Shown here: positions 7,458-64,000 of the stretch, piece by piece | Layout: the number at the start of each line of letters is the position of its first letter | How positions within the stretch are numbered: position 1 is the stretch's first letter | DNA from: Chamaelirium japonicum | Lineage: Eukaryota; Streptophyta; Magnoliopsida; Liliales; Melanthiaceae | DNA: 64,000 nt | Direction: 5' to 3' | NCBI GenBank assembly: GCA_947650365.1 | Contig: OX393550.1 | Span: forward strand, 120,530,374 to 120,594,373 | The notes under the pieces: model-generated | Told to the model about the DNA's origin: nothing | The model's database searches: none | What the model saw: only the letters and a program-made list of their open reading frames with translations | Position numbers and translations under genes: made by a program

Positions 7458-10400
7458 GGGTACTATATATGAAGATGATTGGGACCATGTAAAATACGTT
7501 TTGAATATGTCGGGTATTGGATTTGTTAGAGTTCAAATTCACTTGATTCTTTGATCTTTCATTCGTACAATCCATTCTAATTCATTCGTACGATCCATTC
7601 TAATTCATTCGCACAATCCATTCTAATTCATTCATATGATCCATTCTAATTCATTCGTATGATCCATTCTAATTCATTCGCACGATCCATTCTAATTCAT
7701 TCGTACGATCCATTCTAATTCATTCGCACGAATATATCCATTCTAATTCATTCGTACGATCCATTCTAATTCATTCGTACGATCCATTCTAATTCATTCG
7801 TACGATCAATTCTAATTCATTAGCACGTGGATCAGACGAATGAAATATAATGGGTCGTACAAAGGAATTAGAATGGATCGTACGAATGAATTAGAATGAA
7901 TCGTGCGAATGAATTAGAATGGATCCGTATGAATGAAATTGAATGGATCGTATGAATTAGAATGGATCGTACGCGTACGAATGAATTAGAATGGATACAT
8001 TCGTGCGAATGAATTAAAAGGGATCGTAGAATGGATCGTATGAATGAATTAGATTGGATCGTATGAATGAATTAGAATGGATCGTATGAATGAATTAGAA
8101 TAGATTGTACGAAGGAATTAGAATGGATCGTACGAAGGAATTAGAATGGATACATTCGTGCGAATGAATTAGAATGGATCGTACGAATGAGTAAGAATGG
8201 ATCGTACGAATGAAATAGAGTGGATTGTACGAATGAATTAGAATGGATCGTACGAATGAATTGGAATGGATACATTCGTGCGAATGAATTAGAATGGATC
8301 GTATGAATGAATTAGAATAGTTCGTGCGAATGAATTAGAATGGATCGTGTGAATGAATTAGAATGGATTGTACCAATGAATTAGAATGGATTGTACGAAT
8401 GAATTCGAATGGATCGTGCGAATGAATTAGAATGGATCGTACGAATGAATTAGAATGGATACATTCGTGCGAATGAATTAGAATGGATCGTACGAATGAA
8501 TTAGAATGGATCGTAATAATGGATCGTACGAATAAAATAGAATGGAATTAGAATGGATCATGCAAATGAATTAGAATGGATCGTATGAATGAATTAGATT
8601 GGATCGTATGAATGAATTAGAATGGATCGTACGAATGAATTAGAATGGATCGTGCGAATGAATTAGAATGGATCGTATGAATGAATTAGATTGGATCGTA
8701 TTAGTGAATTAGAATGGATCGTACGAATGAATTAGAATGGATCGTATGAATGAATTAGAATGGATCGTGGGAATGAATTAGAATGGATCGTACGAATGAA
8801 TTAGAATGGATCGTACGAAGGAATTAGAATGGATCGTACGAATGAATTAGAATGGATCGTACGAATGAATTAGAATGGATACATTCATGCAAAAGAATTA
8901 GAATGGATTGTATGAATGAATTAGAATGAATCGAATGAATGAATTTGAATGGATCGTGCGAATGAATTAGATCGGATCGTATGAATGAATTAGAATGGAT
9001 CGTATGAATGAATTAGAATAGATTGTGCAAATAAATTAGAATGGATCGTACGAACGAATTAGAATTGATCGTACGAATGAATTAGAATAGATTGTGCGAA
9101 TGAATTAGAATGGATCGTACGAATAAATTAGAATGGATCGTACAAATGAATTAGGAAGGATCGTGCGAATGAATTAGAATAGATCGTGCGAATGAATTAG
9201 AATGGATCGTATGAATGAATTAGAATGGATCGTGCGAATGAATTAGAATGGATCGTATGAATGAAATAGAATGGATCGTATGAATTAGAATGGATCGTAC
9301 GAAGGAATTAGAATGGATCGTATGAATGAATTAGATTGGATCGTATTAATGAATTAGAATGGATCATACGAATGAATTAGAATGGATCGTACGTATGAGT
9401 AAGGATGGATCGTATTAATGAATTAGAATTGATCGTGCGCACGATCCATTCTAATTCATTCGTACAATCCATTCTAATTCATTCGCACGATCCATTCGAA
9501 TTCACTCATACGATCCATTCTAATTCATTCATACGATCCATTCTAATTCATTCGCACGATCCATTCTAATTCATTCATACAATCGATCCAATCTAATTCA
9601 TTCATACGATCCATTTTAATGGATCGTACGAATGAATTAGAATGGATCGTATGAATGAATTCGAATGGATCGTACAAAGGAATTAGAATGGATCGTACGA
9701 AGGAATTAGAATGGATCGTATGAATGAATTAGAATGGATCGTGCGAATGAATTAGAATGGATCGTATGAATGAAATAGAATGGATCGTATGAATTAGAAT
9801 GGATCGTACGGATCCATTCTAATTCATTCGCATGATCAATTCTAATTCATTCATACAATCCATTCTAATTCTTTCACACGATCCATTCTAATTCATTCGT
9901 ACGATCCATTCTAATTCATTCACACGAATGTATCCATCCTTTGTACGATCCATTCTAATTCATTTATACGATCAATTCTAATTCATTCGTACGATCCATT
10001 CTAATTCATTCGCACGATCCATCCTAATTCATTCATACGATCCAATCTAATTCATTCGTACTATCTATTCTAATTCATTCGTACGATCCATTCTAATTCC
10101 TTCGTACGAATGTATGGATTGTACGAATGAATTAGAATGAATCGTACGAATGAAATAGAATGGATTGTATGAAGGAATTAGAATAGATCATATGAATGAA
10201 TTAGAATGGATCGTACGAATGAATTTGATTGGATCGTATGAATTAGAATGGATACATTCGTGCGAATGAATTAGAACGGATCATACGAATGAATTAGAAT
10301 AGATCGTACGAATGAATTAGAATGGATCGTACGAATGAATTAGAATAGATTGAGCGAATGAATTAGAATGGATCGTATGAATGAATTAGATTACGATCCA

Positions 10401-12788
10401 TTCTATTTCATTCGTATGATCCATTATAATTCCTTCGTATAATGTAATTCATTCATACGATCCATTCTAATTCATTCGCACGAATGTATCTATTCTAATT
10501 AATTCGTACGATCCATTCTAATTTATTTGCACGATCCATTCCAATTCATTCATACGATCCATTCTAATTCATTTATACGATCTAATCTAATTCATTCATA
10601 CAATCCATTCTAATTCATTCGCACGAATTTATCCATTCTAATTCATTCGTACGATCCATTCTAATTCATTCGCATAATCTATTCTAATTCATTAGTACGT
10701 TCCATTCTAATTCACTCATACGATCCATTCTAATTCATTCGTACGGATCATACAAAGGAATCAGAATGGATCGTGCGAATGAATTAGAATGGATCGTACG
10801 AATGAATTAGAATGGATACATTCGTGCGAATGAATTAGAATGGATCGTACGAATGAGTAAATATGGATCAGACGAATGAAATAGAATGGATTGTACGAAT
10901 GAATTAGAATGGATCGTATGAATGAGTAAGAATGGATCGTACGAATAAAGTAGAATGGATTGTACGAATGAATTAGAATGGATCGTACAAATGAATTAGA
11001 ATGGATCGTGCGAATGAATTCGAATGGATCGTGCGAATGAAATAGAATGGATCGTACGAATGAATTAGAATGGATCGTGTGAATGAATTAGAATGGAACA
11101 TACGAATGAATTAGAATAGATTGTGCGAATGAATTAGAATGGATCGTACGAATGAATTAGAATGGATAAATTCGTGCGAATGAATTAGAATGGATTGTAT
11201 GAATGAATTAGATTGGATCGTATAAATGAATTAGAATGAATCGTACGTATGAATTAGAATGGATCGTAGGAATGAATTAGATTGGATCGTATGAATGAAT
11301 TAGAATGGATCGTGCGAATGAATTAGAATGGATCGTACGAATGAATTAGAATGGATCGTACGATGAATTAGAATGGATACATTCGTGCAAAAGAATTAGA
11401 ATGGATTGTATGAATGAATTAGAATTGATAGTGCTAATGAATTAGAATGGATCATACGAATGAATTAGAATAGATTGTGCGAATGAATTAGAATGGATCG
11501 TACGAATGAGTAAGAATGGATCGTACGAATGAAATAGAATGGATTGTACGAATGAATTAGAATGGATTGTACGAATGAATTAGAATGGATCATGCGGATG
11601 AATTAGAATGGATCGTACGAATGAATTAGAATGGATCATACGAATGAGTAAGAATGGATCGTACGAATGAAATAGAATGGATTGTACGAATGAATTAGAA
11701 TGGATCGTACGAATGAATTCGAATGGATCGTACGAATGAAACAGAATGGATACAAATGAATTAGATTGGATTATACGAATGAATTAGAATGGATCGTACA
11801 TAATGAATTAGAATGGATCGTGCAAATGAATTAGAATGGATCGTGCGAATGAATTAGAATAGATCGTATGAATGAATTAGAATGGATCGTATGAATGAAT
11901 TAGAATGGAATGTACGAATGAATTTGAATGGATCGTACGAATGAATTTGAATGGATACCTTCGTGCGAATGAATTAGAATGGATTATACGAATGAGTAAG
12001 AATGGATCGTACGAATGAAATAGAATGGATTGTACGAATGAATTAGAATGGATCGTATGAATGAAATAGAATGGATTGTATGAATGAATTAGAAGGGATC
12101 GTACGAATGAATTAGAATGGATCGTGCGAATGAATTAGAATGGATACATTCGTGCGAATGAATTAGAATGGATCGTACGAATGAGTAAGAATGGATCATA
12201 CAAATGAAATAGAATGGATTGTACGAATAAATTAGAATGGATCGTACGAATGAATTAGAATGGATCGTACGAATGAATTAGAATGGATACATTCGTGCGA
12301 ATGAATTAGAATGGATCTTACTCATTCGTATGATCCATTCTAATTCATTCGCAGAATGTATCCATTCTAATTCATTCGCACGAATGAATTAGAATGATTC
12401 GTACGAATGAGTAAGAATGGATCGTACGAATGAATTAGAATGGATTGTACGAATAAATTAGAATAGATTCATTCGTGCGAATGAATTAGAATGGATCGTG
12501 CGAATGAATTAGAATGGATCGTACGAATGAATTAGAATGGATCGCACGAATGAATTAGAATGGATACATTCATGCGAATGAATTTGAATGGATCATACGA
12601 ATGAGTAAGAATGGATCATACGAATGAAATAGAATGGATTGTACGAATGAATTAGAATGGATCGTACGAATGAATTAGAATGGAACGTACGAATGAATTA
12701 GAATGGATACATTCGTGCGAATGAATTAGAATGGATCGTACGAATGAGTAAGAATGGTTCGTATGAATGAATTAGAATGGATCATACA

Positions 12789-12832
12789 AATGAATTAGAA
12801 TGGATCGTACGTACGATCCATTCTAATTCATT
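12789..12832. repeat. 44-bp perfect palindrome at a strand switch
   Basis: The block to the left ends GGATCGTAC and the block to the right starts GTACGATCC. The two arms are exact reverse complements for 22 bases each side of 12810/12811, then diverge. Confidence 0.85.
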
Positions 12833-15800
12833 CATACAATCCATTCTAATTCTTTCACACGATCCATTCTAATTCATTCGTACGATCCATTCTAATTCTT
12901 TCGTACGATCTATTCTAATTCCTTCGTACGTACGCACGATCCTTTCTAATTCATTCGTACGATCCATTCTAATTTATTTGTACGATCCATTCTAATTCAT
13001 TCGCACGACTGTATCCATTCTAATTCATTTGTATGATCCATTCTAATTCATTCGTATGATCCATTCTATTTCATTCGTACAATCCATTCTATTTCATTTG
13101 TACGATCCATTCTTACTCATTCGTACGATCCATTCTAATTCATTCGCACGAATGTATCCATTCTAATTCATTCGCACGATCCATTCTAATTCCTTCATAT
13201 GATCCATTCTAATTCATTCGCACGAATGTATCCATTCTAATTCATTCGTACGATCCATTCTAATTCATTCGTACGATCCATTCTATCTCATTCGCACGAT
13301 CCATTCTAATTTATTCGTACAATCCATTCTAATTCATTCGCACGATCCATTCGAATTCACTCATACGATCCATTCTAATTCATTCGTATGATCCATTCTA
13401 ATTCCTTTGTATCCATTCTATTTCATTCGCACGATCCATTCGAATTCATTCGCACGATCCATTCTAATTCATTAATATGATCCATTCTAATTCATTCATA
13501 CAATCTATTCTAATTCTTTCACACGATCCATTCTAATTCATTCGTACGATCCATTCTAATTCATTCGTACAATCCATTCTATTTCATTCGTACGATCCAT
13601 TCTTACTCATTCGTATGATCCATTCTAATTCATTCGCACGAATGTATCCCTTCTAATTCATTCGTACGATCCATTCTAATTCATTAGTATAATCCATTCT
13701 AATTCATTCGTACAATCCATTCTAATTCTTTCACATGATCCATTTTAATACATTCGTACGATCCATTCTAATTCATTCGTACGATCTATTCTAATTCATT
13801 CGTACGATCCATTCTAATTCATTCGCACGAATGTATCCATTCTAATTCCTTCGTACGATCCATTCAAATTCCTTCGTACGAATCATTCTTACTCATTCGT
13901 ACGATCCATTCTAATTCATTCGCACGAATGTATCGATTCTAATTCCTTCGTACGATCCATTCTAATTCATACGATTCATTCTATTTCATTCGTACGATCC
14001 ATTCTTACTCATTAGCACGATCCATTCTAATTCATTCGTACAATCCATTCTAATTCATTCGCACGATCCATTCGAATTCACTCATACGATCCATTCTAAT
14101 TCAATCGTATGATCCATTCTAATTCATTTGTATCTATTCTATTTCATTCGCACGATCCATTCGAATTCATTCGCACGATCCATTCTAATTCATTCATACG
14201 ATCCCTTCTAATTCATTCATGCAATCCATTCTAATTCTTTCACACGATCCACTCTAATTCATTCGTACGATCCATTCTAATTCATTCGCATGAATGTATC
14301 CATTCTAATTCATTCGTACGATCCATTCTAATTCATTCGCACGAATGAATTAGAATGGATCGTATGAATGAATTAGAATGGATCGTACGAATGAATTAGA
14401 ATGGATCGTGTGAAAGAATTAGAATGGATTGTATGAATAAATTAGAATGGATCGTATGAATGAATTAGAATGGATCGTGCGAATGAATTCAAATGGATCG
14501 TGCGAATGAAATAGAATGGATACAAATGAATTAGAATGGATCATACGAATGAATTAGAATGTATCGTATGAGTGAATTTGAATGGATCGTACGAATGAAT
14601 TAGAATGGATCGTATGAATGAATTAGAATGGATCGTGCGAATGAATTAGAATGGATCGTACGAATGAATTAGAATGGATCGTATGAATGAATTAGAATGG
14701 ATCGTGCAAATGAATTAGAATGGATCGTACGTATGAATGAATTAGAATGGATCGTGCGAATGAATTAGAATAGATCGTACGAATGAATTAGAATGGATAC
14801 ATTCGTGCGAATGAATTCGAATGGATCGTACGAATGAATTCATTCGCACGAATGAATTAGAATGGATCGTACGAATGAAATAGAATGGATCTTACGAATG
14901 AATTAGAATGGATCGTGCGAATGAACTAGAATGGATCGTACGAATGAATTAGAATAGATTGTACGAATGAATTAGAATGGATCATACGAATGAGTAAGAA
15001 TGGATCGTAATGGATTGTACGAATGAATTAGAATGGATCGTACGAATGAATTAGAATGGATACATTCGTGCGAATGAATTAGAATGGATCATACGAATGA
15101 GTAAGAATTGATCGTACGAATGAAATAGAATAGATTGTACGAATGAATTAGAATGGATCGTACGAATGAATTAGAATGGATCGTTCGAATGAATTAGAAT
15201 GGATCATACGAATGAGTAATAATGGATCGGACGAATGAAATTGAATAGATTGTTCGAATGAATTAGAATGGATCTAAATCATTCGTACGATCCATTCTAA
15301 TTCATAAGTACGATCCATTCTATTTCATTCGTACGATCCATTCTAATGAAATAGAATGGATTGTTCGAATGAATTAGAATGGATCGTACAAATGAATTAG
15401 AATGGATCGTACGAATGAATTAGAATAGATTATGCGAATAAATTAGAATGGATCGTACGAATAAATTAGAATGGATCGTATGAATGAATTAAAATGGATC
15501 GTGCGAATAAATTAGAATGGATCGTACGAAGGAATTAAAATGGATCGTATGAATACTAATTCATTCGTACGATCCTTTCTTATTCATTCCCTTGAATGTA
15601 TCCATTCTAATTCATACGTACAATCCATTCTAATTCATTCATATACGATCTATTCTAATTCATTCGTACGATCCATTCATTCTAATTCATTCGTATGATT
15701 CATTCTAATTCCTTCGTACGATCTATTCTAATTCATTCGTACGATCCATTCTAATTCATTCGTATGATCCATTCTATTTCATTCGTACGATCCATTCTTA

Positions 15801-18800
15801 TACATTCGCACGAATGTATCCATTCTATTTCATTCGTATGATCCATTCTAATTCATTCGCACGATCCATTCTAATTCATTCGTACGATCCATTCTAATTC
15901 ATTCGCACGATCAATTCTAATTCATTGGATTGTGCGAATGAATTAGAATGGATTGTATGAATGAATTAGAATGGATTCATTCGTGCGAATGAATTAGAAT
16001 GGATCGTGCGAATGATGCACGATCCATTTTAATTCATTTGTACGATCCATTCTAATTTATTCGCATGATCAATTCTAATTCATTAGCACGATCCATTCTA
16101 ATTCATTAGCACGATCCATTCTAATTCATTCGTACGATCCATTTTACTCATTCATACGATCCATTCTAATTTATTCGTACGATCTATTCTAATTCATTCG
16201 CACGAATGTATCCATCCTTTGTACGATCCATTCTAATTCATTCATACGATCCATTCTAATTCTTTCGTACGATCCATTCTAATTCATTCGCACAATCCAT
16301 TCTAATTCATTCATACGATCCAATCTAATTCATTCGCACGATCCATTCTAATTCATTCATACGATCCATTCTAATTCATTCGTACGATCCATTCTAATTC
16401 ATTCGCATACGATCCATTCTAATTCATTCATACGATCCATTCTAATTCATTCGTACGATCCATTCTAATTCATTCGTACCATTCTAATTCCTTCGTACGA
16501 TCCATTCTAATTCCTTTGTTCTAATTCATTCATACGATCCATTCTAATTCATTCGTACGATTCATTCTAATTCAATCCATTCTAATTCATTCGTACGATC
16601 CATTCGAATTCATTCGTACAATCCATTCTATTTCATTCGTGTGATCCATTCTTACTCATTCGTATGATCCATTCTAATTCATTCGCACGAATGTATCCAT
16701 TCTAATTCATTCGTACGATCCATTCTAATTCATTCGTTTGATCCATTCTAATTCATTCATACGATCCATTCTAATTCATTCATACAATCCATTCTAATTC
16801 TTTCACATGATCCATTCTAATTCATTCGTACGATCCATTCTAATTCATTCGTACAATCCATTCTATTTCATTCGTATGAACCATTCTTACTCATTCGTAT
16901 GATCCATTCTAATTCATTCGCACGATCTATTCTAATTCATTCATAAAATCCATTCTAATTCTTTCACACGATCCATTCTAATTCATTCGTACGATCCATT
17001 CTAATTCATTCGTACAATCCATTTTATTTCATTCGTACGATCCATTCTTACTCATTCGTACGATCTATTCTAATTCATTCGTACGATCCATTCTAATTCA
17101 TTCATACGATCCATTCTAATTCATTCGTATGATCCATTCAAATTCATTCGCACGATCCATTCAAATTCACTCATACGATCCATTCTAATTCATTCGTATG
17201 ATCCATTCTAATTCATTTGTATCCATTCTATTTCATTCGCACGATCCATTCGAATTCATTCGCACGATCCATTCTAATTCATTCATACGATCCATTCTAA
17301 TTCATTCATACAATCCATTCTTACTCATTCGTATGATCCATTCTAATTCATTTGCACGAATATATCCATTCTAATTCAATGGATCATATGAATGAATTGG
17401 AATGGATACATACGAATGAATTAGAATGGATCGTATGAATGAATTAGATTGGATCGTATGAATGAATTAGAATGGATCGTGCGTCGTACGAATGAATTAG
17501 AATGGATCGTATTAATGAATTAGAATGGATCGTGCGAATGTATTAGAATGGATCGTACGAATGAATTAGTTTGGATCGTATGAATGAATTAGAATGGATC
17601 GTGCGTCTTACGAATGAATTCAATCCATTCTAATTCTTTTACACGATCCATTCTAATTCATTCGTACGATCCATTCTAATTCATTCGTACGATCCATTCT
17701 AATTCATTCGTACAATCCATTCTATTTCATTAGAATGGATCGTATGAATGAAATAGAATGGATCGTACTTATGAATTAGAATGGATTATACGAATGAATT
17801 AGAATGGATCGTGCGATCGTACGAATGAAATAGAATGGATTGTACGAATGAATTAGAATGGATCGTACGAATGAATTAGAATGGATCATACGAATGAATT
17901 AGAATGGATACATTCGTGCGAATGAATTAGAATAGATCATACGAATGAGTAAGAATGGATCGTAACAATGAAATAGAATGGATCGTACGAAGGAATTAGA
18001 ATGGATGATACGAATGAATTAGATTGGATCGTATGAATGAATTAGAATGGATTGTATGAATGAATTAGAATGGATCGTAGGATTGAGTAAGAATGGATCG
18101 TACGAATGAAATAGAATGGATTGTACGAATGAATTAGAATGGATCATACGAATGAATTAGAATAGATCGTACGAATGAATTAGAATAGATTGTGCGAATG
18201 AATTAGAATGGATACATTCGTGCGTAGAATGGATCGTACGAATGAATTAGAATGTATCCTGTGAAAGAATTAGAATGGATTGTATGAATGAATTAGAATG
18301 GATCGTATGAATGAATTAGAATGGATCGTACGAATGAATTAGAATGGATCATACGAATGAATTAGAATGGATATATTCGTGCGAATGAATTAGAATGGAT
18401 CATACGAATGAGTAAGAATGGATCGTACGAATGAAATAGAATGGATTGTACGAATGAATTAGAATGGATTATATGAATGAATTAGAATGGATACCTACGA
18501 ATGAATTAGAATGGATCGTCTGAATGAATTAGATTGGATCGTTTGAATGAATTAGAATGGATCGTGCGTCGTACGAATGAATTAGAATGGATCGTATTAA
18601 TGAATTAGAATGGATCGTGCAAATAAATTAGAATGGATCGTACGAATGAATTAGAATGGATCGTACGAATGAATAAGAATGGATCGTATGAATGAATGAG
18701 AATGGATACATACGAATGAATTAGAATGGATCGTATGAATGAATTAGATTGGATCGTATGAATGAATTAGAATGGATCGTGCATCGTACGAATGAATTAG

Positions 18801-21188
18801 AATGGATCGTATTAATGAATTAGAATTTATCGTGCAAATAAATTAGAATGGATCGTACGAATGAATTAGAGTGGATACATTCGCGTGAATGAATTTGAAT
18901 GGATCGTATGAATGAATTTGAATGGATCGTATGAATGAATTAGAATGGATCGTACGAATGAATTAGATTGGATCGTACGAATGAATTAGAATGGATACAT
19001 TCGTGCGAATGAATTAGAATGGATCATACGAATGAGTAAGAATGGATCGTAAGAATGAAATAGAATGGATTGTACGAATGAATTAGAATGGATCGTATGA
19101 ATGAAATAGAATAGATTGTACGAATGAATTAGAATGGATCGTACGAATGAATTAGAATGGATCGTGCGAATGAATTAGAATGGATACATTCGTGCGAATG
19201 AATTATAATGGATCATACGAATGAAATAGAATGGATTGTACGAATGAATTAGAATGGATCGTACGAATGAATTAGAATGGATCGTATGAAAGAATTAGAA
19301 TGGATACATTCGTGCGAATGAATTAGAATGGATCGTACGAATGAATTAGAATGGATCGTATGAATGAATTAGAATGGATTGTATGAATGAATTTGAATGG
19401 ATCGTATGAATGAATTAGAATGGATCGTACGAATGAATTAGAATGGATCGTACGAATGAATTAGAATGGATACATTCGTGCGAATGAATTAGAATGGATC
19501 ATTCAAATGAGTAAGAGTGGATCGCACGAATCAAATAGAATGGATTGTACGAATGAATTAGAATGGATCGTACGAATGAATTAGATTGGATCATGTGAAA
19601 GAATTAGAATGGATTGTATGAATGAATTAGAATGGATCATATGATTGAATTAGAATGGATCGAATGAATTAGATTACGATCTATTCTAATTCATTTGTAC
19701 GATCCATTCTAATTCATTCGTATGATCCATTCTAAATCATTCATTCGCACGAATGTATCCATTCTAATTCATTCGCACGAATGTATCCATTTTAATTCAT
19801 TCGTAAGATCCATTCTAATTCATTCGTACAATCTTTTCTAATTCATTCGCACGATCCATTCTAATTCATTCGTATGATCCGTTCTAATTCATTCGCAAAA
19901 TCTATTCTAATTCATTCGCACGAATGTATCCATTCTTATTCATTTATACAATCTATTCTAATTCATTCGTACGATCCATTCTAATTCATTCATACAATCA
20001 ATTCTATTTCATTCGTACGATCCATTCTTACTCATTCGTATGATCCATTCTAATTCATTCGCACGAATGTATCCATTCTAATTCATTCGTACGATCCATT
20101 CTAATTCATTCGCACAATCCATTCTAATTCATTCGTACGATATATTCTAATTCATTCGTACGATCCATTCTAATTCATTCGTACAATCCATTCTATTTCA
20201 TTCGTACGATCCATTCTTACTCATTCGTACGATCTCATTCATACAATCTATTCGTACGAATGAATTAGAATGGATACATTCGTGCAAAAGAATTAGAATG
20301 TATTTATTCGCACGATCCATTCTAATTCATTCGCACGATCCATTCTTATTCATTCATACGATCCAATCTAATTCATTCATACGATCCATTCTAATTCATT
20401 CACATAATCTATTCTAATTCATTTGTATGATCCATTCTAATTCATTCGTACGATCTTTTCTAATTCATTCGTACGATCCATTCTAATTCATTCGTACGAC
20501 GCACGATCCATTCTAATTCATTCATACGATCCAATCTAATTCATTCATACGATCCATTCTAATTGATACGAACAATCCATTCTAATTCATTCGTACGATC
20601 CATTCTAATTCATTGGCACGATCCATTCTAATTCATTCGCACGAATGTATCCATTCTAATTGATATGTACAATCCATTCTATTTCATTCGTACGATCCAT
20701 TCTTACTTATTCGTACGGTCCATTCTAATTCATTCGTACGAATGAATTAGAATGGATCGTACGAATGAATTAGAATGGATACATTCGTGCGAATGAATTA
20801 GAATGGATCATACGAATGAGTAAGAATGGATCGTACGAACGAAATAGAATGGATTGTATGAATGAATTAGAATGGATCGTACGAATGAATTAGAATGGAT
20901 CGTGTGAAAGAATTAGAATGGATTGTATGAATGAATTAGAATGGATCGTATGAATGAATTAGAATGGATCGTACGAATGAATTAGAATGGATACATTCGT
21001 GCGAATGAATTATAATGGATCGTACGAATGAGTAAGAATGGATCATACGAATGTAATAGAATGGATTGTACGTATCAATTAGAATGGATACATTCGTGTG
21101 AATGAATTAGAATGGATCGTGCGAATGAATTAGACTGGATCGTACGAATGAATTAGAATGGATCGCACGAAGGAATTAGAATGGATCG

Positions 21189-22004
21189 GATACATTCGTG
21201 CGAATGAATTCGAATGGATCGTGCGAATGAATTAGAATGGATCATACTAATGAATTAGAATGGATCATACGAAGGAATTAGAATGAATCGGATACATTCG
21301 TGCGAATGAATTAGAAGGGATCGTGCGACTGAATTAGAATGGATCGTACGAATGAATTAGAATGGATCGTACGAAGGAATTAGAATGGATCGGATACATT
21401 CGTGCGAATGAATTAGAATGGATCGTGCGAATGAATAAGAACGGATCGTACGAATGAATTAGAATGGATCGTACGAAGGAATTAGAATGGATCGGATACA
21501 TTCGTGCGAATGAAGTAGAATGGATCGTGCGAATGAATTAGAATGGATCGTACGAATGAATTAGAATGGATCGTACGAAGGAATTAGAATGGATCGGATA
21601 CATTCGTGCGAATGAATTAGAATGGATCGTGCGAATGAATTAGAATGGATCGTACGAATGAATTAGAATGGATCGTACGAAGGAATTAGAATGGATCGGA
21701 TACATTCGTGCGAATGAATTAGAATGGATCCTGCGAATGAATTAGAATGGATCGTATGAATGAATTAGAGTGGATCGTACGAAGAAATTAGAATGGATCG
21801 TATACATTCGTGCGAATGAATTGGAATGGATCGTGCGAATGAATTAGAATGGATCGTACGAATGAATTAGAATGGATCGTACGAAGGAATTAGAATGGAT
21901 TGGATACATTCGTGCGAATGAATTAGAATGGATCGTGCGAATGAATTAGAATGGATTGTACGAATGAATTAGAATGGATCATATGAATGAATTAGAATGG
22001 ATCG
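21189..22004 (+). repeat. 102-bp higher-order repeat, 8 copies
   Basis: The landmark GATACATTCGTGCG recurs at 21189, 21291, 21393, 21495, 21597, 21699, 21801 (first base variant) and 21903, a constant 102-bp period. Each unit is three 23-bp monomers plus one 33-bp monomer (the 28-bp variant with five extra bases, ATCGG). Copies differ at a few positions each, indicating recent local amplification. Confidence 0.92.
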
Positions 22005-50908: not shown

Positions 50909-51478
50909 GGTGAAATCCCGCTCCCCGGGTCCCGGAGGCAGGTGCTAGTTCGCCGGCCTTCCAGCTACCACCGCGGGGACTTCAGCGGGCTATACTGCAG
51001 GAGCTGCAGGCGGTCCGGGCAAAGATACAACCGGGGGTGCCTCCCATCTTTCTACGGCTTTAACAACGAGAGGTCACAGAGCCGGCGGAGGTCGCTGCTC
51101 AACTGCCTTCCCCTTTCGGTCTAACACCGCATCTTCAAGCTTGATGTGTTGCTGGACAAGGGCGAAGAGCTCGACCATCGTGCGGGGATCCTTGATCACC
51201 AGCGCGTCATGAAGTTTGCTTCCCTCGGGGAGGGCATTCCAGAAAGCGCTCACCGTCGTGCGATCTTGATCGACCGCGTCCTCCAGGGTGAGGTAGGCGC
51301 TTCGAAAGCGCATCGTGAAGCTTCGAAGGGTTTCGCGGGCTCCAATGGCTAAGGTGAAGAGGGACTCGATCCTCTTAGGGGGTTGCCTGTTGCAGCGGTA
51401 CTGCTCCAGAAACAATCTGGAGAGAGTAGGGAAGTCTGGAATGGTGCCCGATGGCAATTTGTGGAACCAGTTTAACGC

Positions 51479-51483
51479 CGAGC
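51479..51483. repeat. target-site duplication of the nested insertion, left copy (CGAGC)
   Basis: CGAGC at 51479-51483 is repeated at 54386-54390, flanking the TG...CA-ended insertion in gag. Confidence 0.92.
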
Positions 51484-51904
51484 TGTTGTGATTTTAAATT
51501 ATTATACCGCAAGTGCACGGTGTCTATCTGATAGACAGTGCCAAATACAGGTCGATCCCACAGAGACTTGGATGAAAACTAATTAAAGGAAAATTTAACG
51601 CTAATTACTTTTATATTATAGTTTAATATGATGATTGATTTTTTTTTTGTGAAATTGTTTTGTAAAAGAAATATGGAAAGCAGAACTGAAAGCTAATTAA
51701 GGTTACGGTTGTAATCTATATGGAGAGACATTCTAAGCTCTAGAATCCGCACAAGTAGCGATCTAAACTATACTTTTAGATGATTTCCAGGATTCTCACG
51801 GAGATGCGAAGTCAATCTATCTCCGTGGATGATATTCAATGGAGCACTATTATGATCACGAATGTAGTGATCTTCCTCGCTTTAACGGAATAAGCCTGAA
51901 ATAC

Positions 51905-52045
51905 TTCTCCGTACTTCGGAGTAATAACAGAAGCTAACACTATGTAATGATTCTCCGTAAAACTACTCGTAATGACGAAGAATAAAACTATGAGATAAAC
52001 CTCTGTAGAACTCTGATAATAACGGAGAATAAAGCTAACTTATTA
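51905..52045 (+). repeat. degenerate 47-bp tandem repeat, about 3 copies
   Basis: Units beginning CTCCGTA, CTCCGTA and CTCTGTA occur near 51907, 51952 and 52000, each followed by GTAATRAC-like and GAAGCTAAC/AATAAARCT-like words. Confidence 0.5.
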
Positions 52046-52487
52046 TAGAAATTTTAATCAAGCATGAATGAACAAAGATCACTTTATTTTCATTAAACGC
52101 ACTAAAATATGGAAATCAAATAAGAGCATGGTTTAGATACAACTACAAGGCTTCATCCAGGTCTTAGAATAGGATGTTTAGCCTCGGATGGCCATGTGAT
52201 GCTGATGGCGGATGCTCCTTTGAAGATGACGAACCCGGCGACGATTGCGACGTGGATGGAGCTCGGCTTCGAGCGCAGTGGACGAGGTAGTCGGAGAAGA
52301 TTACGTGACCGGCGGAGATGGTGTAGTAGAAGCCCCGGGTCATCCTCCGCTTTCCGGTGTTGATGAGGATGAAGAAGTGGAGATGATGGCTTCGGTTTAC
52401 GGTGGTACCAAGAGCTCCGGGTTGGTGAAAGTGGTGATGGTTTTTGGTCGTCCGAACTCCCCCCTTTTTGTGTTTCGGACCCCCCCT

Positions 52488-52493
52488 TATATA
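52488..52493 (+). promoter_or_regulatory. TATA box in the nested LTR
   Basis: TATATA sits in a C-rich to GA-rich transition, similar in layout to the TATA region of the copia LTR at 3647. It suggests that the element's sense strand is +. Confidence 0.5.
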
Positions 52494-52499
52494 GGATAT

Positions 52500-53115
52500 A
52501 GAGAGAGAGAAAAGAGAGAGATGGTCGGTTGGCTTGGTCCCAAAATATAAGGAAAAGCAGTAAGAGAGAGAAGTTCGCAGAGAGAGAAAGACATCCGGAG
52601 GTCTGCTCTCAATCGGGTAGGGGCCGGGTTTTAGAGAGAGAATCGGAGGGCTGCGTGTATGACCCGGACGACTGCATGGGTTTTGAAGAGATCAGGTGGT
52701 TGGGTTAGAGAGAGAAAAGCAAGGAGGAGAGATAGAAGATCGGTGAAGAGAGAGAGAAAAAGAAAGAGAATCTGAGAGAGAGGAGTTCGGGAGAGAGAAT
52801 CAAGAAAAGAGAGAGAATATCGGTTGGGTTGTTAAGGAAAGAGAGAGAGATGGAAAGAGAGTCCGAGAGCTGCAGGAAACTAGGGGGAGGAGAGAGAGAT
52901 GTGCAGACTAGAGAGAGAAGTTCGATGTGTTTTAGAGAGAGAACCCAAGCCGATCGGGTAGAGAGAGATTCGGAGGAGAAGTTGGGCACGTAAGAGGGGA
53001 CGGCTGAGATCAAATGAGAAGAGAGAAAAAGAAGATCGGGCTAGAGAGAGGTGGGATGGGCGGTTAAGGAAAGAGAGGGAATTAGAGAGAGAAAATCAAG
53101 GAGGGAGAGAGAGAA
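52500..53115 (+). repeat. GA-rich low-complexity stretch
   Basis: GAGAGAGA and AGAGAGAGAA words recur throughout about 600 bases, interspersed with unique words. Downstream to about 53430 an ATCGGACGGCTG motif recurs (near 53176, 53222 and 53412). Confidence 0.8.
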
Positions 53116-55391
53116 TCCCGGATTTTAGTTGCATGTGTTCGGTTGCATGGATGATACACGGATGGGAGAGGGAAAACGGATCGGACGGCTGAAGGTAAGA
53201 GGCTGCATGGGTTTTGTATTTGGATCGGACGACTGGGTTTAGGTGGGATGGTGAGATGGTCGGCTGTGAGTGGTGGAATTGAGAGGTGGAGTGCTGGGTT
53301 GCATGCATTAAGTGGGTTCGGTGCATGCTGATGCACAGGATGGCCGGAGTTAAAGAGATGAGGGGGACGGATGGTTGGGTTCACATTCAAGCATGCATGG
53401 GTTTGGCTCTAGGATCGGACGGCTGTGATGTTGTCTCCGAGTTCATGGACGGGAAAGACACGGAGGCTAGGGACGGTTGTGATCTGATGAGAATGAAAGA
53501 GAATTGGGATCCGGAGGTTCGCGGTCGGGCCGGATGCACAAGTGGGGACTTGGGTGCCATGCATGCAAATGAGAGCTGTGATGGATCTCGATGGGGTGAG
53601 GTGCGTCGGTGATCAAGTGGGTTTGTACAAGGTTTGCACGAAGTGTTTTGGTTTTGCACGGCTATCTAGGCCATCGGATGGCTTTGATTAAATGAAAATA
53701 AAGAAAAGGAAGAGAATGAGGATATGAGGAGTTTGGGCGATTGGGATTGATTCGGATGCAAGGGATGACTCGGTTGGAATCATGATCGACGGGGTATTAC
53801 ACGGCTATGATGGAAAAAGAGAGTAAAATAAGGAGAAGAAAGGTGGTAGGTCATTCGGGTTCCACCATCCGGGCCATCTGATCTCGTCAACCTCCGTCAT
53901 TCCATTTGCATACGTGTAATCCTCCTCTATGTTTGAATCCCGCATTGCGCCGGCTCGATGAAGCCTTCCCTTGACTGAATCATCATAGATATTCTTTTTC
54001 CCCTTGATCTTCAGAAAAGCCTCCAAACAGCCTGTGCATGCTCCATCGACTCTCCATAAAAATGTTCATCACTCTATTATGATGCTCTTGAGCTAGCTTC
54101 GCCAAGAACCGGATTCATTCCCTGAAAGACACACGTGAAATGACACTTATCAGATTCAAATGCGATTATCGATAAAAGGATAATTTGGGCTATTGGGATC
54201 CGTATTTTTCATGCATGCAATGTATGAGAGCGAACCAATATGCCGTTGGGTTCGTATGAAAGTCTACTATATCATGGTGCAAAGAAACTCATGTAGTTTA
54301 CGTGTAGTATGAAAGTTTTACGTAGCAAACTGATGATATATGCATAATACTAAAAGGATAATTCGTACAAATTGGCCGCTCAACACGAGCCCGTCAAGCT
54401 ACTCGGGAAAGCCCAGCACAAGACATGGTCTTGGTCCCGAAAAAATAGCAGCTTCCGGTAAGCCAAGAGATGGTCGACAGGATCTTGCGATCCATCGAAC
54501 AGTACAAACTTGGGCGGGGTCCAATGGTGAGGGAAACCTCCTTGGTGCACTTCACTCGTGAAGGGCGAGCTGCCTCCGTGGGCGGCGAGGTCCTCCAGCA
54601 GGTCTACAGGCGCGTTAGGTCGCTGCTAGTGCCCGGGGATAATTCCCAGAGGCGGCTGCGCAAGTCCTAAGCGGTCATGCACGCTCCCTCGGGGTCCTCC
54701 CCCATGGTGACCTGAGAGGGTTCCTGCGGAGTGACCTCCTCGTCGATCTGCGGGCTCTCTTGGTACGATAGCGGGTCGATGAGAAGTGGTTGCCTCGCGA
54801 GCTCCATGTGGCAAAGCCACCGCAGGCTCCTTCCCCTGTCACCGATGACGCGGGTCGCGGTCTCTCTCCAGAGATCTCGCCTCAGATTCATCTGAATCGG
54901 TGCTTCTGTCGCGACGTCGGGGAATGGTTGCTTGCGAGGTCGCCCTGTTGCTTGACTGCTGGGTCACCAGCTTTTGCAATCTCGTAAGCGGGGTTTCCGG
55001 TTCCCCGCGCACGGCCGTTCTCTCAACCGGGGGTTCCCGGTGGGAGGCTTGCCGAGCCGGAATGGTCGCGGGCGGGCGCGATGTTGAAGCTGGTGGGCGC
55101 ACCGGAGATGCCGTCTTCGCCGGCCCGGACCGTCGGCTTGCCGCCGGAACCTGATGCAGTCGCGTCAGTTCCTCCATCATGGCCCGCTGGGTGGCCAACA
55201 TCTCCAACAGGAGCTGGTCACTGAGCGGGACATGGGGCTGGGGGGTCTCAGCAGGAGGTTCGCTGCGTGCAGACCTCGCACGGGTCCTCGGTCGCCTGCG
55301 TCCCCTCGTCGCCGGAGCCATCCTTGGGTTACGAGAGCCCCCGACGTTCAACCGCATGGTCGTGGGCGTCCTCGAAGGAACCAGTCGAAAG

Positions 55392-55409
55392 ATCCCACAG
55401 ACGGCGCCA
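55392..55409 (-). other. primer-binding site of the Tat element
   Basis: On the minus strand TGGCGCCGTCTGTGGGA begins two bases inside the 5' LTR. The TGGCGCC start is complementary to a GGCGCCA tRNA 3' end. I do not assign the tRNA. Confidence 0.8.
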
Positions 55410-55411
55410 AA

Positions 55412-56282
55412 TGTTTGGGGATCTCTTTCGCTGGTCTGCGCGGTCTACCTGCAAGACAAAGAAAGAACGTGAGAACGGCTGGCTCCCTTAGGAGCGCAGA
55501 CCCTCCGACGCTCAAGTCAGTCTCAAGTGCTCAACGGCGTGCTATAGTAGACGAAAGTGGTAGGGATGAGGGTTTCCAATCTGTACTTTGGAGCCTAGGG
55601 GTGGGTATTTATAGACATTGGCGACCTACCGCTGCCCAACACGTGGTAGTTCTTTCCAGCGCCTTCTAGGCCCCCACGTTCTGGCTCGCGTGGGTCTCTG
55701 ACGGCCTTTGGAACTCGCGCCCCTGACATTCTTTGTTGTCGAGCATGCCAGGCGGTTTGAGTGGGGGAGTGCATCTTAACCAACTCAGGCGGGCTTCCGT
55801 GGACTACAATTGTCCACATAGCTTCAGTGGGGTTTTGACACCTGACAACCCTTTATGCTGCTTTATTGCGGGCGACCTCGGGGGGGAAGCAAGGGCGAGC
55901 TTGCCCTTGGTCGCTCCGTCTTCTCCTCCACATCTATCAAGAGTCTGACCTCGCAGGAGCAACCTCTTCGATAAGCAGGGGAGTCTTGGCGAGTTTGGGC
56001 GAGCTCCTGAGTGAGCTGGGGTCGTCTGTGGTGCTGGTGTCTTTGTATGCATGACGGTCTAACTCCCGCTGCCGCTACAAGCGAACTCCTGTGCGAGCTT
56101 GGGCGAGCTCCTGTGCGAACTTAGGCAAGCTCCTGATCGAGCTTGGGCGGGCTCCTGAGCGAGCTTGGGCGAGCTCCTGAGCAAGCTTGGGTGAGCTCCT
56201 GAGCGAGCTTTGCACTAAGATGCACAAAGGCCCCTTCAGCCCAATGTGAATCTCGCTCCCTGTTAAGATGATTTGGTGAGCA

Positions 56283-56316
<34 letters not shown>

Positions 56317-56490
56317 CGAGCTCCTGGGCGAGTTCCCCATCCCTTGGAATCCTGGGGTCTATGAGATCCATAGGCAAGGGCGAACTAGTGACGAGCGTGC
56401 GGAGCTAGGGGCGGGCCGTTGGCGAGCTAGGAGGCGAGCTCATACGGATAAGGGCCCCGACTCCTGGACGGATTTCAGCTACCCCCAACA
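55412..56490 (-). repeat. 5' LTR of the Tat element (right copy)
   Basis: 1079 bp, same boundaries as the left LTR (TGTTTGGGG to CCCCCAACA on the + strand). About 23 base differences from the left copy, mostly transitions, were counted by eye, plus length differences at the G run and a segment of about 27 bp present only here. Confidence 0.95.
55606..55613 (-). promoter_or_regulatory. TATA box driving gag-pol (5' LTR)
   Basis: TATAAATA on the minus strand, about 200 bases before the primer-binding site, which leaves a short R-U5. Confidence 0.65.
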
Positions 56491-59400
56491 GATTGTACGA
56501 ATGAACTACAATGGATCATGCTAATGAGTAAGAATGGATCGTACGAATGAAATAGAATGGATTGTACGTGATCCATTCTAATTCATTCGTACAATCCATT
56601 CTAATTCATTCGCACGATCCATTCTAATTCATTCGCACCATTCTAATTCATTCGCACAATCTATTCTAATTCATTCGTACGATCAATTCTAATTCATTCG
56701 TACGATCCATTCTAATTCATTCGTACGATCTATTCTAATTCATTCGTACGATCCATTCTAATTCATTAATACGATCCAATCTAATTCATAAGTACGATCC
56801 ATACTTACTCATTCATATGATCCATTCTAATTCATTCGCACGAATGTATCCATTCTAATTCATTCGTATGATCCATTCTAATTCATTCGTACGATCCATT
56901 CTAATTCATTCGTACGATCCATTCTAATTCATTCATACAATCCATTCTAATTCCTTCGTACGATCCATTCTAATTCATTCGTACGATCCATTCTAATTCA
57001 TTCGTGCGATCCATTCTAATTCATTCGCACGAATGTATCCATTCTAATTGATACGTACAATCCATTCTATTTCATTTGTACAATCCATTCTTACTCATTC
57101 GTACGATCCATTCTAATTCATTCGCACGAATGTATCCATTCTAATTCATTCGTACGATCCATTCTAATTCATTCATACGATCCATTCTAATTCATTCATA
57201 CAATCCATTCTAATTCTTTCACATGATCCATTCTAATTCATTCGTACGATCCATTCTAATTCATTCGTACAATCCATTCTATTTCATTCGTACGATCCAT
57301 TCTTACTCATTCGTATGGTCCTTTCTAATTCATTCGTACGAATGTATCCATTCTAATTCATTCGTACGATCCATTCTAATTCATTCGTACGATCCATTCT
57401 AATTCATTCATACAATCCATTCTAATTCTTTCACTCCATTCTAATTCATTCGTACGATCCATTCTAATTCATTCGTACAATCCATTCTATTTCATTCGTA
57501 CGATCCATTCTTACTCATTCGTATGATCCATTCTAATTCATTTGCACGAATGTAACAATTCTAATACATTCGTACTATCCATTCTAATTCATTCGTACGA
57601 TCCATTCTAATTCCTTCGTACGATCCATTCTAATTCATTTGCACGATCCATTCTAATTCATTTATACGATCCAATCTAATTCATTCATACAATCCATTCT
57701 AATTCATTCGCACGAATGAATCTATTGAATTAGAATGGATCGTACGAACGAGTAAGAATGGATCGTACGAATTAAATAAAATGGATTGTACGAATGAATT
57801 AGAATGGATCGTATGAATGAATTAGAATGGATCGTGTGAAAGAATTAGAATGGATTGTATGAATGAATTAGAATGGATCGTATGAACGAATTAGAATGGA
57901 TCGTACGAATGAATTAGAATAGATACATTCGTCCGAATGAATTAGAATGGATCATACGAATGAGTAAGAATGGATCGTTCGAATGAAATAGAATGGATTG
58001 TACGAATGAATTAGAATGCATCGTACGAATGAATTAGAATGGATCGTGTGAAAGAATTAGAATGGATTGTATGAATGAAATAGAATGGATCGTATGAATG
58101 AATTAGAATGGATCGTACGGAATGAATTTGAATGGATCGTACGAATGAATTAGAATGGATACATTCGTGCAAATGAATTAGAATGGATCATACAAATGAG
58201 TAAGAATGGATCGTACGAATGCAATAGAATGGATTGTATGAATAAATTAGAATGGATCGTACGAATGAATTAGAATTGATCGTGCGAATGAATTAGAATG
58301 GATCGTACGAATGAATTAGAATGGATACATTCGTGCGAATGAATTTGAATGGATCATACGAATGAGTAAGAATGGATCGTACGAATGAAATAGAATGGAT
58401 TGTACGAATGGATTAGAATGGATCGTGCTAATGAATTAGAATGGATCGTACGAATGAATTAGAATGGATCATACGAATGAATTGGAATGGATACATTCGT
58501 GCGAATGAATTAGAATTGATCGTATGAATGAATTAGAATTGATCGTACGAATGAATTAGAATGGATCGTACGAATGAATTAGAATGGATACATTCGTGCG
58601 AATGAATTAGAATGGATCATACGAATGAGTAAGAATGAATCGTACGAATGAAATAGAATGGATTATACGAATGAATTAGAATGGATCGTATGAATGAATT
58701 AGAATGGATCGTACGAATGAATTAGAATGGATACATTCGTGCGAATGAATTATAATGGATCATACGAAAAAGTAAGAATGGATCGTACGAATGCAATAGA
58801 ATGGATTGTATGAATTAATTAGAATGGATCGTACGAATGAATTAGAATAGATTGTTTGAATGAATTAGAATGGATACATTCGTGCGAATGAATTAGAATG
58901 GATCGTACGAATGAATTAGAATAGATCGTACGAATGAATTAGAATGGATCGTACGAATGAATTAGAATAGATTGTGCGAATGAATTAGAATGGATCGTAT
59001 GAATGAATTAGAATAGATCGTACGAATGAATTAGAATGGATCGTACGAATGAATTAGAATAGATTGTGCGAATGAATTAGAATGGATCGTGCGAATGAAT
59101 TAAAATGGATCGTATGAATGAATTAGACTGGATACATTCGTGCGAATGAATTAGAATGGATTGTACGAATGAATTAGAATGGATCATATGAATGAATTAG
59201 AATGGATACATTCGTGCGAATGAATTAGAGTACGATCCATTCTTACTCATTCGTATGATCCATTCTAATACATTCGCACGAATGTATCCATTCTAATTCA
59301 TTCGTACGATCCATTCTAATTCATTCATATTATCTATTCTAATTCATTCGTACGATCCATTCTAATTCATTCGCACGATCCATTCTAATTCATTAATACG

Positions 59401-62400
59401 ATCCATTTTAATTCATTCGAACGACGCACGATCCATTCTAATTCATTCGCACTATCCATTCAAATTCATTCGTACGATCCATTCTAATTCATTCGCACGA
59501 ATGTATCCAGTCTAATTCATTCATACGATCCATTTTAATTCATTCGCACGATCCATTCTAATTCATTCGCACGATCCATTCTTACTCATTCGTATGATCC
59601 ATTCTAATTCATTCGCACGACTGTATCCATTCTAATTCATTCGTACGATCCATTCTAATTCATTCGTATGATCCATTCTATTTCATTCGTACGATCCATT
59701 CTAATTCATTCGCCCGATCCATTCTAATTCATTCGCACGAATGTATCCATTCTAATTCATTCATACGATCCATTCTAATTCATTCGCACCATCCATTCGA
59801 ATTCACTCATACGATCCATTCTAATTCATTCTTATGATCCATTCTAATTCATTTGTATCCATTCTATTTCATTCGCACGATCCATTCGAATTCATTCGCA
59901 CGATCCATTCTAATTCATTCATACGATCCATTCTAATTCATTCATACAATCCATTCTAATTCTTTCACACGATCCACTCTAATTCATTCGTACAATCCAT
60001 TCTAATTCATTCGTACGATCCATTCTAATTTATTCATACGATCTATTCTAATTCATTCGTATGATCCATTCTTACTCATTCATACGATCTATTCTAATTC
60101 ATTCGCACGAATGTATCCATTCTAATTCATTCGTACGATCCATTCTAATTCATTCGTACAATCCATTCTATTTCATTCGTATGATCCATTCTTACTCATT
60201 CGTATGATCCATTCTAATTGATTCGCACGAATGTATCCATTCTAATTCATTCGTACGATCCATTCTAATTCATTCGTACGATCCATTCTAATTCATTCGT
60301 ACAATCCATTCTAATTCATTCGCACGAATTTATCCATTCTAATTCATTCATACGATCCATTCTAATTCATTCGCACAATCTATTCTAATTCATTCGTACG
60401 TTCCATTCTAATTCATTACATACGATCCATTCTAATTCATTCGCACAATCTATTCAAATTCTTTCGTACGATCCATTCTATTTCCTTCGTATGATCCATT
60501 CTAATTCATTCGTATGATCCATTCTAATTCATTCGCACGATCAATTCTAATTCATCATGCGAATGAATTAGAATGGATCGTACGAATGAGTAAGAATGGA
60601 TCGTACGAATGAAATAGAATGGATTGTACAAATGAATTAGAATGGAACGTTCGAATGAATTAGAATGGATACATTCGTGCGAATGAATTATAATGGATCG
60701 TACGAATGAGGAAGATTGGATCGTACAAATGAAATAGAATGGATTGTACGAATGAATTAGAATGGATCGTACGAATGAATTAGAATGGATCGTGTGAAAA
60801 AATTAGAATGGGTCGTATGAATGAATTAGAATGGATCGTATGAATGAATTACAATGGATCGTACGAATGAATTAGAATGGATCATATGAATGAATTAGAA
60901 TGGATACATTCGTGTGAATGAATTAGAATGGATCGTACGAATGATTAAGAATGGATCGTACGAATGAAATAGAATGGATTGTACGAATGAATTAGAATGG
61001 ATCGTACGAATGAATTAGAATGGATCGTACGAATGAATTAGAATGGATACATTCGTGCGAATGAATTAGAATGGGTCGTACGAATGAGTAAGAATGGATC
61101 GTACGAATGAATTAGAATGGATCGTATGAATGAATTAGAATGGATACATTCGTGCGAATGAATTAGAATGGATCATACGAATGAGTAAGAATGGATCGTA
61201 CGAATGTATTCGTGCGTGTGAAAGAATTAGAATGGATTGTATGAATGAATTAGAATGGATCGTATGTATGAATTAGAATGGATCGTACGAATGAATTACA
61301 ATGGATCGTACGAATGAATTAGAATGGATACATTCGTGTGAATGAATTAGAATGGATCGTACGAATGAGTAAGAATGGATCGTACGAATGAAATAGAATG
61401 GATTGTACGAATGAATTAGAATGGATCGTAGATCCAATCTAATTCATTCATACGATCCATTCTAATTCATTCGCACGAATGAATCCATTCTAATTCATTC
61501 GTACGATCCATTCTAATTAATGAATTAGAATGGATCGTACGAATGAATTAGAATAGATCGTACGAATGAATTAGAATTGATCGTACGAATGAGTAAGAAT
61601 GGATCGTACGAATGAAATAGAATGGATTGTACGAATGAATTAGAATGGATTCATTCGTGCGAATGAATTAGAATGGATCGTGCGAATGAATTAGAATGGA
61701 TCGTACGAATGAATTAGAATGGATCGTACGAATGAAATAGAATGGATACATTCGTGCGAATGAATTAGAATGGATCATACGAATGAGTAAGAAGGGATCG
61801 TACGAATGAAATAGAATGGATTGTACGAATGAATTAGAATGGATCGTACGAATGAATTAGAATGGATCGTACGAATGAATTAGAATGGATACATTCATGT
61901 GAATGAATTAGAATGGATCGTACGAATGAATTAGAATGAATTAGAATGGATAAATTCGTGCGTACGAATTATAATGGACCGTACGAAGGAATTAGAATGG
62001 ATCATCGTACGAATGAATTAGAATGGATCGTGCGAATGAAATAGAATGGATTGTATGAATGAATTAGAATGGATCGTACGAATGAATTAGAATGGATTCA
62101 TTCGTGCGAATGAATTAGAATGAATTGTGCGAATGAATTAGAATGGATCGTATGGATTTATTAGAATGGATATATTCGTGCAAATGAATTGGAATGGATC
62201 GTATGAATGAATTAGAATGGATCGTACGAATGAATTAGAATGGATACATTCGTGCGAATGAATTAGAATGGATCGTACGAATGAGTAAGAATGGATCGTA
62301 CGAATGAAATAGAATGGATTGTACGAATGAATTAGAATGGATCGTGCGAATGAATTAGAATGGATCGTATGAATAAAATAGAATTGATCATATGAATTAG

Positions 62401-64000
62401 AATGGATCGTACGAAGGAATTAGAATGGATCGTACGAATGAATTAGAATGGATCGTGTGAAAGAATTAGAATGGATTGTATGAATGAATTAGAATGGTTC
62501 GTACGATCAATTCTAATTCATTCGCACGAATGTATCCATTCTAATTTCTTCGTACAATCAATTCTAATTCCTTCGTACGAATTATTCTTACTCATTCGTA
62601 CGATCCATTCTAATTCATTCGCACGAATATATCCATTCTAATTCCATCGTACGATCCATTCTAATTCATACGATCCATTCTATTTCATTCGTACGATCCA
62701 TTCCTACTCATTTGGACAATCCATTCTAATTCATTCGTACAATCCATTCTAATTCATTCGCACGATCCATTCGAATTCACTCATATGATCCATTCTAATT
62801 CCTTCGTATGATCCATTCTAATTCATTTGTATCCATTCTATGTCATTCGCATGATCCATTCGAATTCATTCGCACGATCCATTCTAATTTCCATTCTAAT
62901 TCATTCATACGATCCATTCTAATTCATTCGCACGAATGTATCCATTCTATTTCATTCGTACGATCCATTCTAATTCATTCGCACTATCAATTCTAATTCA
63001 TTCATACGATCCATTCTAATTCATTCGCACAGTCTATTCTAATTCATTCGTTACGATCCATTCTAATTCATTCGTACGATCCATTCTAATTAATGAATTA
63101 GAATGGATTGTACGAATGAATTTGAATGGATCGTATGAATGAATTAGAATGGATCGTGCGAATGAATTATAATGGATCGTACGAATGAATTAGAATGGAC
63201 ACATTCATTCTAATGAATTAGAATGGATCGTATGAATGAATTAGAATGGAAATTAGAGAATGAATTAGATTACGATCCATTCTATTTCATTCATACGATC
63301 CATTCTAATTCATTCGTACAATCCATTCTATTTCATTCGTACGATCCATTCTTACTCATTCGTATGATCCATTCTAATTCATTCGCATGAATGTATCCAT
63401 TCAAATTCATTCGTACGATCCATTCTAATTCATTCGTACAATCCATTCTAATTCATTCGTACGATCCATTCTAATTCAATCATACGATCCATTCTAATTC
63501 ATTCATACAATCCATTCTAATTCTTTCACACGATCCATTCTAATTCTTTCGTACGATCCATTCTAATTCATTCGTACAATCTATTCTATTTCATTCGTAC
63601 GATCCATTCTTACTCATTCATACATTCCATTCTAATTCATTCGTATGATCTATTCTAATTCATTTGCACGAATGTATCAATTCTAATTCATTCGTACGAT
63701 CCATTCTAATTCATTCGTACGATCCATTCTAATTTATTCATACGATCCATTCTAATTCATTCGCACGATCCGTTCTAATTCATTCTAATTCATTCGTACG
63801 ATCCATTCTAATTCATTCGCACGATCCATTCGAATTCACTCATACGATCCATTCTAATTCATTCGTATGATCCATTCTAATTCATTTGTATCGATTCTAT
63901 TTCATTCGCACGATCCATTCGAATTCATTCACACGATCCATTCTAATTCATTCATACGATCCATTCTAATTCATTTATACAATCCATTCTTACTCATTCG
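56491..64000. repeat. 23-bp satellite array, right part
   Basis: This is the same satellite as 7559-41141, resuming in phase at the GATTG duplication and running off the window. Forward blocks are at about 56491-56568, 57726-59228, 60556-61430, 61517-62503 and 63091-63268. Reversed blocks are at about 56569-57725, 59229-60555, 61431-61516, 62504-63090 and 63269-64000. The GAGTAAG/GAAATAG/28-bp cassettes seen on the left occur here too, so the Tat element split one array. Confidence 0.97.

Follow-up and report, generated by a model that had tools for sequence, protein, structure and literature searches.

The 64,000-bp stretch of DNA analyzed here (hereafter, the window) carries a satellite that, judged by its monomers and their arrangement, very likely belongs to the Chio family, to which CENH3 binds in the holocentric monocot Chionographis japonica (Kuo et al., 2023, PMC10264360), a lily relative that is filed by NCBI as Chamaelirium japonicum. 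The satellite changes strand 54 times in 41.1 kb. We are highly confident that the window comes from a Chio1/Chio2 centromere unit of C. japonica or of a close congener, in which such alternation is normal and most likely results from repair that is blind to orientation. Both the family and its strand-alternating organization are already known, and the finding is an independent rediscovery; the junction-level detail alone is perhaps new. An analysis of Chio switch points at the base level was not found in the available portions of PMC10264360 or PMC12722358, nor by title among the literature matches listed.

Identity of the satellite

The strict 23-bp consensus of the satellite, GGATCGTACGAATGAATTAGAAT, is present in 476 copies, and a strict 28-bp form, GGATACATTCGTGCGAATGAATTAGAAT, in 98 copies, the latter differing from the 23-mer by 5 inserted bases and one A-to-G change. 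The Chio1 and Chio2 repeats of C. japonica are satellites of 23 and 28 bp, and, relative to Chio2, Chio1 lacks 5 bp and has one substituted base (Kuo et al., 2023, PMC10264360). The 23-mer is dominant in the window while the 28-mer is less abundant and intermingled with it, both of which are traits of Chio, and the mixed forward and reverse orientation, a further Chio trait, was also found. Moreover, the 9-mer TTCGTACGA, which a 2025 study of the sister genus identifies as part of Chio (PMC12722358), has 517 occurrences across both strands of the 41 kb of satellite. That study describes the orientation of Chio as often alternating, and the original description reports arrays that mix forward and reverse monomers and predicts a hairpin-forming dyad (PMC10264360). 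Judged against the available portion of PMC10264360, the window and Chio have in common the intermingled 23- and 28-bp monomers with their 5-bp plus 1-bp difference, the hairpin dyad, the mixtures of forward and reverse arrays, and the insertion of transposable elements within arrays; no difference between the two was found in that portion of the source.

The assignment to Chio thus rests on the monomer lengths of 23 and 28 bp, the 5-bp plus 1-bp difference, the 9-mer, and the organization of the array, with the published monomers compared by description and not letter by letter. The strings TACGA and ATTC are absent from the main text of PMC10264360, in which the monomers are given in Figure 3b and the probes in the supplement. 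Similarly, a search of 5.39 million paper texts with four 12-mers from the monomer yielded five papers, of which none is by title a satellite paper, a result that would also be expected if the monomer were given in a figure or supplement and not in the text. The comparison by description and the blank text search would both be compatible with convergence, in which an undescribed satellite distinct from Chio has come to resemble it. However, Chio is matched in the lengths of 23 and 28 bp, in the exact 5-bp plus 1-bp difference, in the 9-mer, and in the alternating orientation, and we consider convergence to be very improbable. An earlier note on this DNA, made from the letters alone, knew of no described family with this monomer and held that a known satellite with the same organization would count against its reading; Chio, as described in print, is such a satellite (PMC10264360). 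CENH3 chromatin and kinetochore assembly on Chio are taken from the published work on the family and would apply to this array as a member of that family.

The Chama satellite of Chamaelirium luteum (PMC12722358) resembles the satellite in the window in carrying TTCGTACGA, and it is dyad-rich and bound by CENH3. Unlike the window, Chama is described as having a 60-bp monomer, consistently oriented arrays, and a higher-order structure that extends over hundreds of kilobases, and the available portion of that source identifies no retrotransposons in its arrays. Membership of the window satellite in Chama was rejected, since neither a 60-bp monomer nor uniform orientation was found.

Layout of the array and retrotransposons of the window

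Strand was assigned with a cyclic, 23-phase, two-strand Viterbi model that was trained on the window and that chooses among strand, phase, and background for each base. The satellite segments called by the model extend from 7558 to 41143 and from 56491 to the end of the window; the model takes in two bases at the left edge of the insert that lies between them, and the exact edges of the insert were set by the ends of its long terminal repeats (LTRs). The main features are as follows.

7558..41141, left part of the array, very likely Chio satellite: 46 alternating blocks, 45 switches
20736..24827, plus strand, block of 4,092 bp, the longest in the array, in which local higher-order repeats have offsets of 102 and 378 bp
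41137..41141, left copy of the target-site duplication GATTG
41142..56490, minus strand, LTR retrotransposon of 15.3 kb, Ty3/gypsy by its domains and presumably Tat-like, inserted into a plus block
41142-42193 and 55412-56490, LTRs of the insert, with ends TG...CA
56491..56495, right copy of the target-site duplication GATTG, a perfect 5-bp match to the left copy
56491..64000, remainder of the array to the right of the insert: 9 switches and 10 blocks, of which the first continues the last block of the left part; runs off the window

The 54 strand switches in the 41.1 kb of 23-bp satellite comprise 27 of each polarity and separate 55 alternating blocks with a mean length of 747 bp, a median of 510 bp, and a range of 47-4,092 bp, where the plus block that is split by the insert is counted once. 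A total of 25,074 bp is on the plus strand and 16,022 bp on the minus strand. The number of switches was stable at 54 when the switch probability was lowered from 1e-5 to 1e-13 (five values) and rose with looser settings, to 58 at 1e-4 and 140 at 1e-3. When every block was turned onto one strand as a control, 0 switches were called, indicating that the switches are not a product of monomer divergence. These measurements agree closely with the earlier estimate of about 55 switches in 41 kb and of blocks from under 100 bp to 4.1 kb that average about 750 bp. The span given at that time for the satellite, 7559-64000, does contain the array; the 15.3-kb retrotransposon inside it is not satellite.

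Open reading frames (ORFs) of the insert match the Pfam models RVT_1, RT_RNaseH, RVT_3 (a second RNase H-like domain), rve (integrase), and Retrotrans_gag, while aspartyl protease models match below the Pfam cut-off; by this domain content, the insert is a Ty3/gypsy element. Its placement as Tat-like is tentative and is based on the second RNase H and the length of the element; ORFs antisense near the 3' LTR are a further feature of that lineage. Two long ORFs on the plus strand (43102-43845 and 43971-45062) are present near the 3' LTR of this minus-strand element, and neither has a Pfam match. Over 1,052 aligned bases, the two LTRs show 24 transitions and 5 transversions, in addition to a 27-column gap, yielding a K2P distance of 0.028. 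If a grass rate of 1.3e-8 substitutions per site per year is assumed, the insertion would be about 1 Myr old, a value that should be taken as a rough guide only. Near-pure G runs of 33-34 bases are found in both LTRs (42014-42047 and 56284-56316). Shortly after the G run, the two LTRs differ by 27 bp that only one of them carries. Also inside the insert, at 42329-42615, a 71-bp unit is repeated four times in tandem (93% matches).

The window also includes the apparent remnant of a degraded copia-like element. As judged by eye, positions 2080-4195 represent its putative 3' LTR, with a purine tract followed by TGTTAGAATT ... ATCTCTAACA. An ORF at 1048-1332 likewise appears copia-like by eye and is without a Pfam match, and a 132-bp sequence is present inside the remnant in two tandem copies (464-725, 95% matches).

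Sequence and predicted folding at strand switches

The 20-bp scars at the switches recur more often than permutation predicts. When at most one mismatch and either orientation are allowed, 8 of the 351 pairs of minus-to-plus switches share a scar (permutation mean 1.9, maximum 7), as do 7 of the 351 pairs of plus-to-minus switches (permutation mean 1.2, maximum 6); in neither polarity did any of 200 permutations reach the observed number. With zero mismatches, 5 minus-to-plus pairs share a scar, which again was reached by 0 of 200 permutations, and 1 plus-to-minus pair does so, an unremarkable number that 46 of 200 permutations reach. Three individual switches are as follows.

10392..10393, switch whose 20-bp scar is identical at 63271 and is found with at most one mismatch at 19675
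15344..15345, switch whose scar is repeated inverted at 17731; top-scoring minus-to-plus pair (107.5; mean 65.0, s.d. 10.6, 702 comparisons)
20735..20736, minus-to-plus switch on the TCGTACGA palindrome axis, one of six (the others at 12381, 14342, 25695, 40272, and 57713)

Four of the 8 shared minus-to-plus scars are switches on this palindrome axis, for which an independent origin is possible; the remaining ones link 15344 with 17731 and join the trio of 31889, 61518, and 63091. A reading by eye in which several scars are plain copies of one another found weak support: scoring of the flanking sequence in 1,404 comparisons left only two pairs above the 99th percentile of the null (2.96), namely 15344/17731 (5.0) and 10392/63271 (3.5), and none above the 99.9th percentile (9.7). 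Recurrence of the scars may therefore reflect either copying or preferred breakpoints.

It is conceivable that the switches are artefacts of assembly in which satellite contigs were misjoined, given that the array is repetitive. However, alternation has been reported for C. japonica from a PacBio HiFi assembly, and the HiFi libraries, with mean lengths of 14, 15, 20, and 26 kb, can span many such blocks (PMC10264360). Moreover, the recurrence of distant scars exceeds permutation, which random misjoins would not produce, and the retrotransposon with its perfect 5-bp target-site duplication lies within a plus block that continues on both sides. We thus give misassembly very little credence.

The 8-bp palindrome axis TCGTACGA coincides with 6 of the 27 minus-to-plus switches (permutation mean 2.0; 23 of 5000 permutations reach this number), with the qualification that the axis was picked post hoc, after the list of junctions had been seen, and that copying may account for some of the six. 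A preference of minus-to-plus switches for the axis is thus suggestive only. None of the 27 plus-to-minus switches is on the axis (permutation mean 0.84). Consensus microhomology is 2.9 bp at minus-to-plus switches and 0.81 bp at plus-to-minus switches, where uniform phases give 0.77 bp. Since plus-to-minus switches do not use the axis and have microhomology at the level of chance, a palindrome rule would cover at most part of one polarity. Further, switches show no enrichment of Chio2: of 132 cores, 3 are within 30 bp of a switch, as compared to a mean of 10.7 after shifting, a deficit that is partly built in because a core cannot straddle a switch.

Folding was predicted as minimum free energy (MFE), with DNA parameters and 200-nt single strands, for the 39 of 54 switches with both arms of at least 100 bp (15 were left out). 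Mean MFE was -72.3 kcal/mol at 20 minus-to-plus junctions and -67.9 kcal/mol at 19 plus-to-minus junctions, as compared to -16.0 kcal/mol in 95 windows from block interiors. Far more stable folding is thus predicted for strands across switches than for block interiors, and the richness in foldback structures that had been anticipated for this DNA is borne out as a prediction (about -70 kcal/mol at switches versus -16 inside blocks). It should be noted that inverted blocks necessarily give strong folding at switches, and that the predicted energies bear on the strands as modeled and not on structures forming in the cell.

A comparable organization has been described for the macro-dyads of the TmSat1 and TmSat2 satellites of the beetle Tribolium madens (PMC13081366), which, like the window, comprise subarrays in opposite orientation, recurring sequences at inversion sites, and large predicted hairpins. 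Unlike the window, these satellites are described as having subunits of ~110 bp (the TmSat2 monomer is 704 bp) and predominantly two subarrays per array. TmSat1 inversion sites are reported to be 98.2-98.9% alike (PMC13081366), whereas the window has many irregular blocks with mostly different scars.

Cassette copies and the origin of the alternation

Plain BLAST self-comparison of the array was weakly discriminating (577 matches as compared to 146-378 in shuffled arrays, with a longest match of 2,591 bp versus 318 bp in the null), and a phase-aware score that rewards rare variants shared in phase was therefore used in its place, with a cut-off of log-odds at least 25. This cut-off was reached by 47 direct and by 27 inverted pairs of cassettes, as compared to 0 pairs in each of six monomer-shuffled arrays, for which the best null score was 22.5 (among the five shuffles with scores). 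The sharing of cassettes between strands to which the earlier note had drawn attention is confirmed. With the insert removed, pairs at least 4 kb apart include 20 direct and 22 inverted, while those less than 4 kb apart include 27 direct and 5 inverted. Wholly inside the plus block at 20736-24827 are 16 of the 47 direct pairs and 0 of the 27 inverted pairs, and the eight top direct scores are all within this block, at offsets that include 102 bp, 378 bp, and multiples. This 4.1-kb block is a locally expanded higher-order repeat. A 206-bp tandem duplication in a minus block (25784-26195) is smaller than that expansion. Plus blocks hold 61% of the bases, and copying that ignores orientation would yield near-equal numbers of direct and inverted pairs at a distance, as was observed. 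The cassette pairs thus support orientation-blind copying.

In the mechanism that we propose, the monomers, which are rich in dyads and have a consensus that includes the palindrome TCGTACGA, would form hairpins, and these would stall replication forks and lead to breakage. Repair would then copy cassettes of several monomers, irrespective of orientation, with another part of the array or a clustered unit as their source; the route would be ectopic gene conversion, break-induced replication, or template switching, with little homology or none. The copied cassettes may bring an older switch along. Dyad-seeded switching is supported only in part by the data described above. We infer the triggering of breakage by hairpins, the repair pathway, and the origin of recurrent scars as copies as opposed to reused preferred breakpoints.

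Alternating blocks would also be generated by in-place inversion of segments in an array that was formerly head-to-tail, and inversions with one breakpoint in satellite arrays have been put forward as a possible route for the spreading of centromere satellites (Kuo et al., PMC10264360). Only 2 of 53 blocks, however, carry the phase signature expected of a lossless flip (within 2 bp), as compared to 2.5 by chance, and the duplication of cassettes in both orientations goes beyond mere flipping. Flips of long standing could be masked by later insertions and deletions, and inverted pairs would likewise result if duplication were followed by inversion; with these points considered, in-place inversion appears unlikely. 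A separate candidate, insertion of blocks in register, was not supported: 14 of 53 blocks are within 1 bp of register, as compared to 6.9 under uniform phases, but this was not significant under permutation (minus blocks, 8 of 26, reached by 313 of 5000; plus blocks, 6 of 27, reached by 1195 of 5000).

Snap-back (foldback) duplication, in which a hairpin end is copied at the switch to leave mirror-image arms, is in keeping with the six minus-to-plus switches on the palindrome axis and with the mirror-arm scores at 31379 (16.8) and 14342 (13.4), which exceed the 99th percentile of the null (11.7). Across the 45 of 54 switches that were compared (9 with an arm of less than 80 bp were dropped), mirror-arm similarity nevertheless averages 5.7, versus 5.1 when arms from different switches are paired (189 such null comparisons, with a maximum of 22.4). 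Such duplication could be limited to a minority of events or to old, decayed ones, and we doubt that it accounts for the alternation. Neither in-place inversion nor snap-back duplication is supported as a general origin.

Returning to orientation-blind copying, a more specific form of it can be put forward tentatively. A limited founding set of switch scars might have been multiplied by cassette copying in both orientations, with minus-to-plus switches arising preferentially at the TCGTACGA dyad, such that switches are inherited units. In that case, alternation would be a by-product of dyad-seeded template switching and orientation-blind copying.

Chio underlies a holocentromere that is built of a few megabase satellite units (PMC10264360), and the sister genus is described as having uniformly oriented arrays with the same 9-mer, TTCGTACGA (PMC12722358). 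In the window, the published alternation is seen at the level of bases. The junction features described here (recurrence of scars, the palindrome axis, and orientation-blind copies) could be scored genome-wide on the 100 published Chio units, and would bear on how centromere repeats spread.
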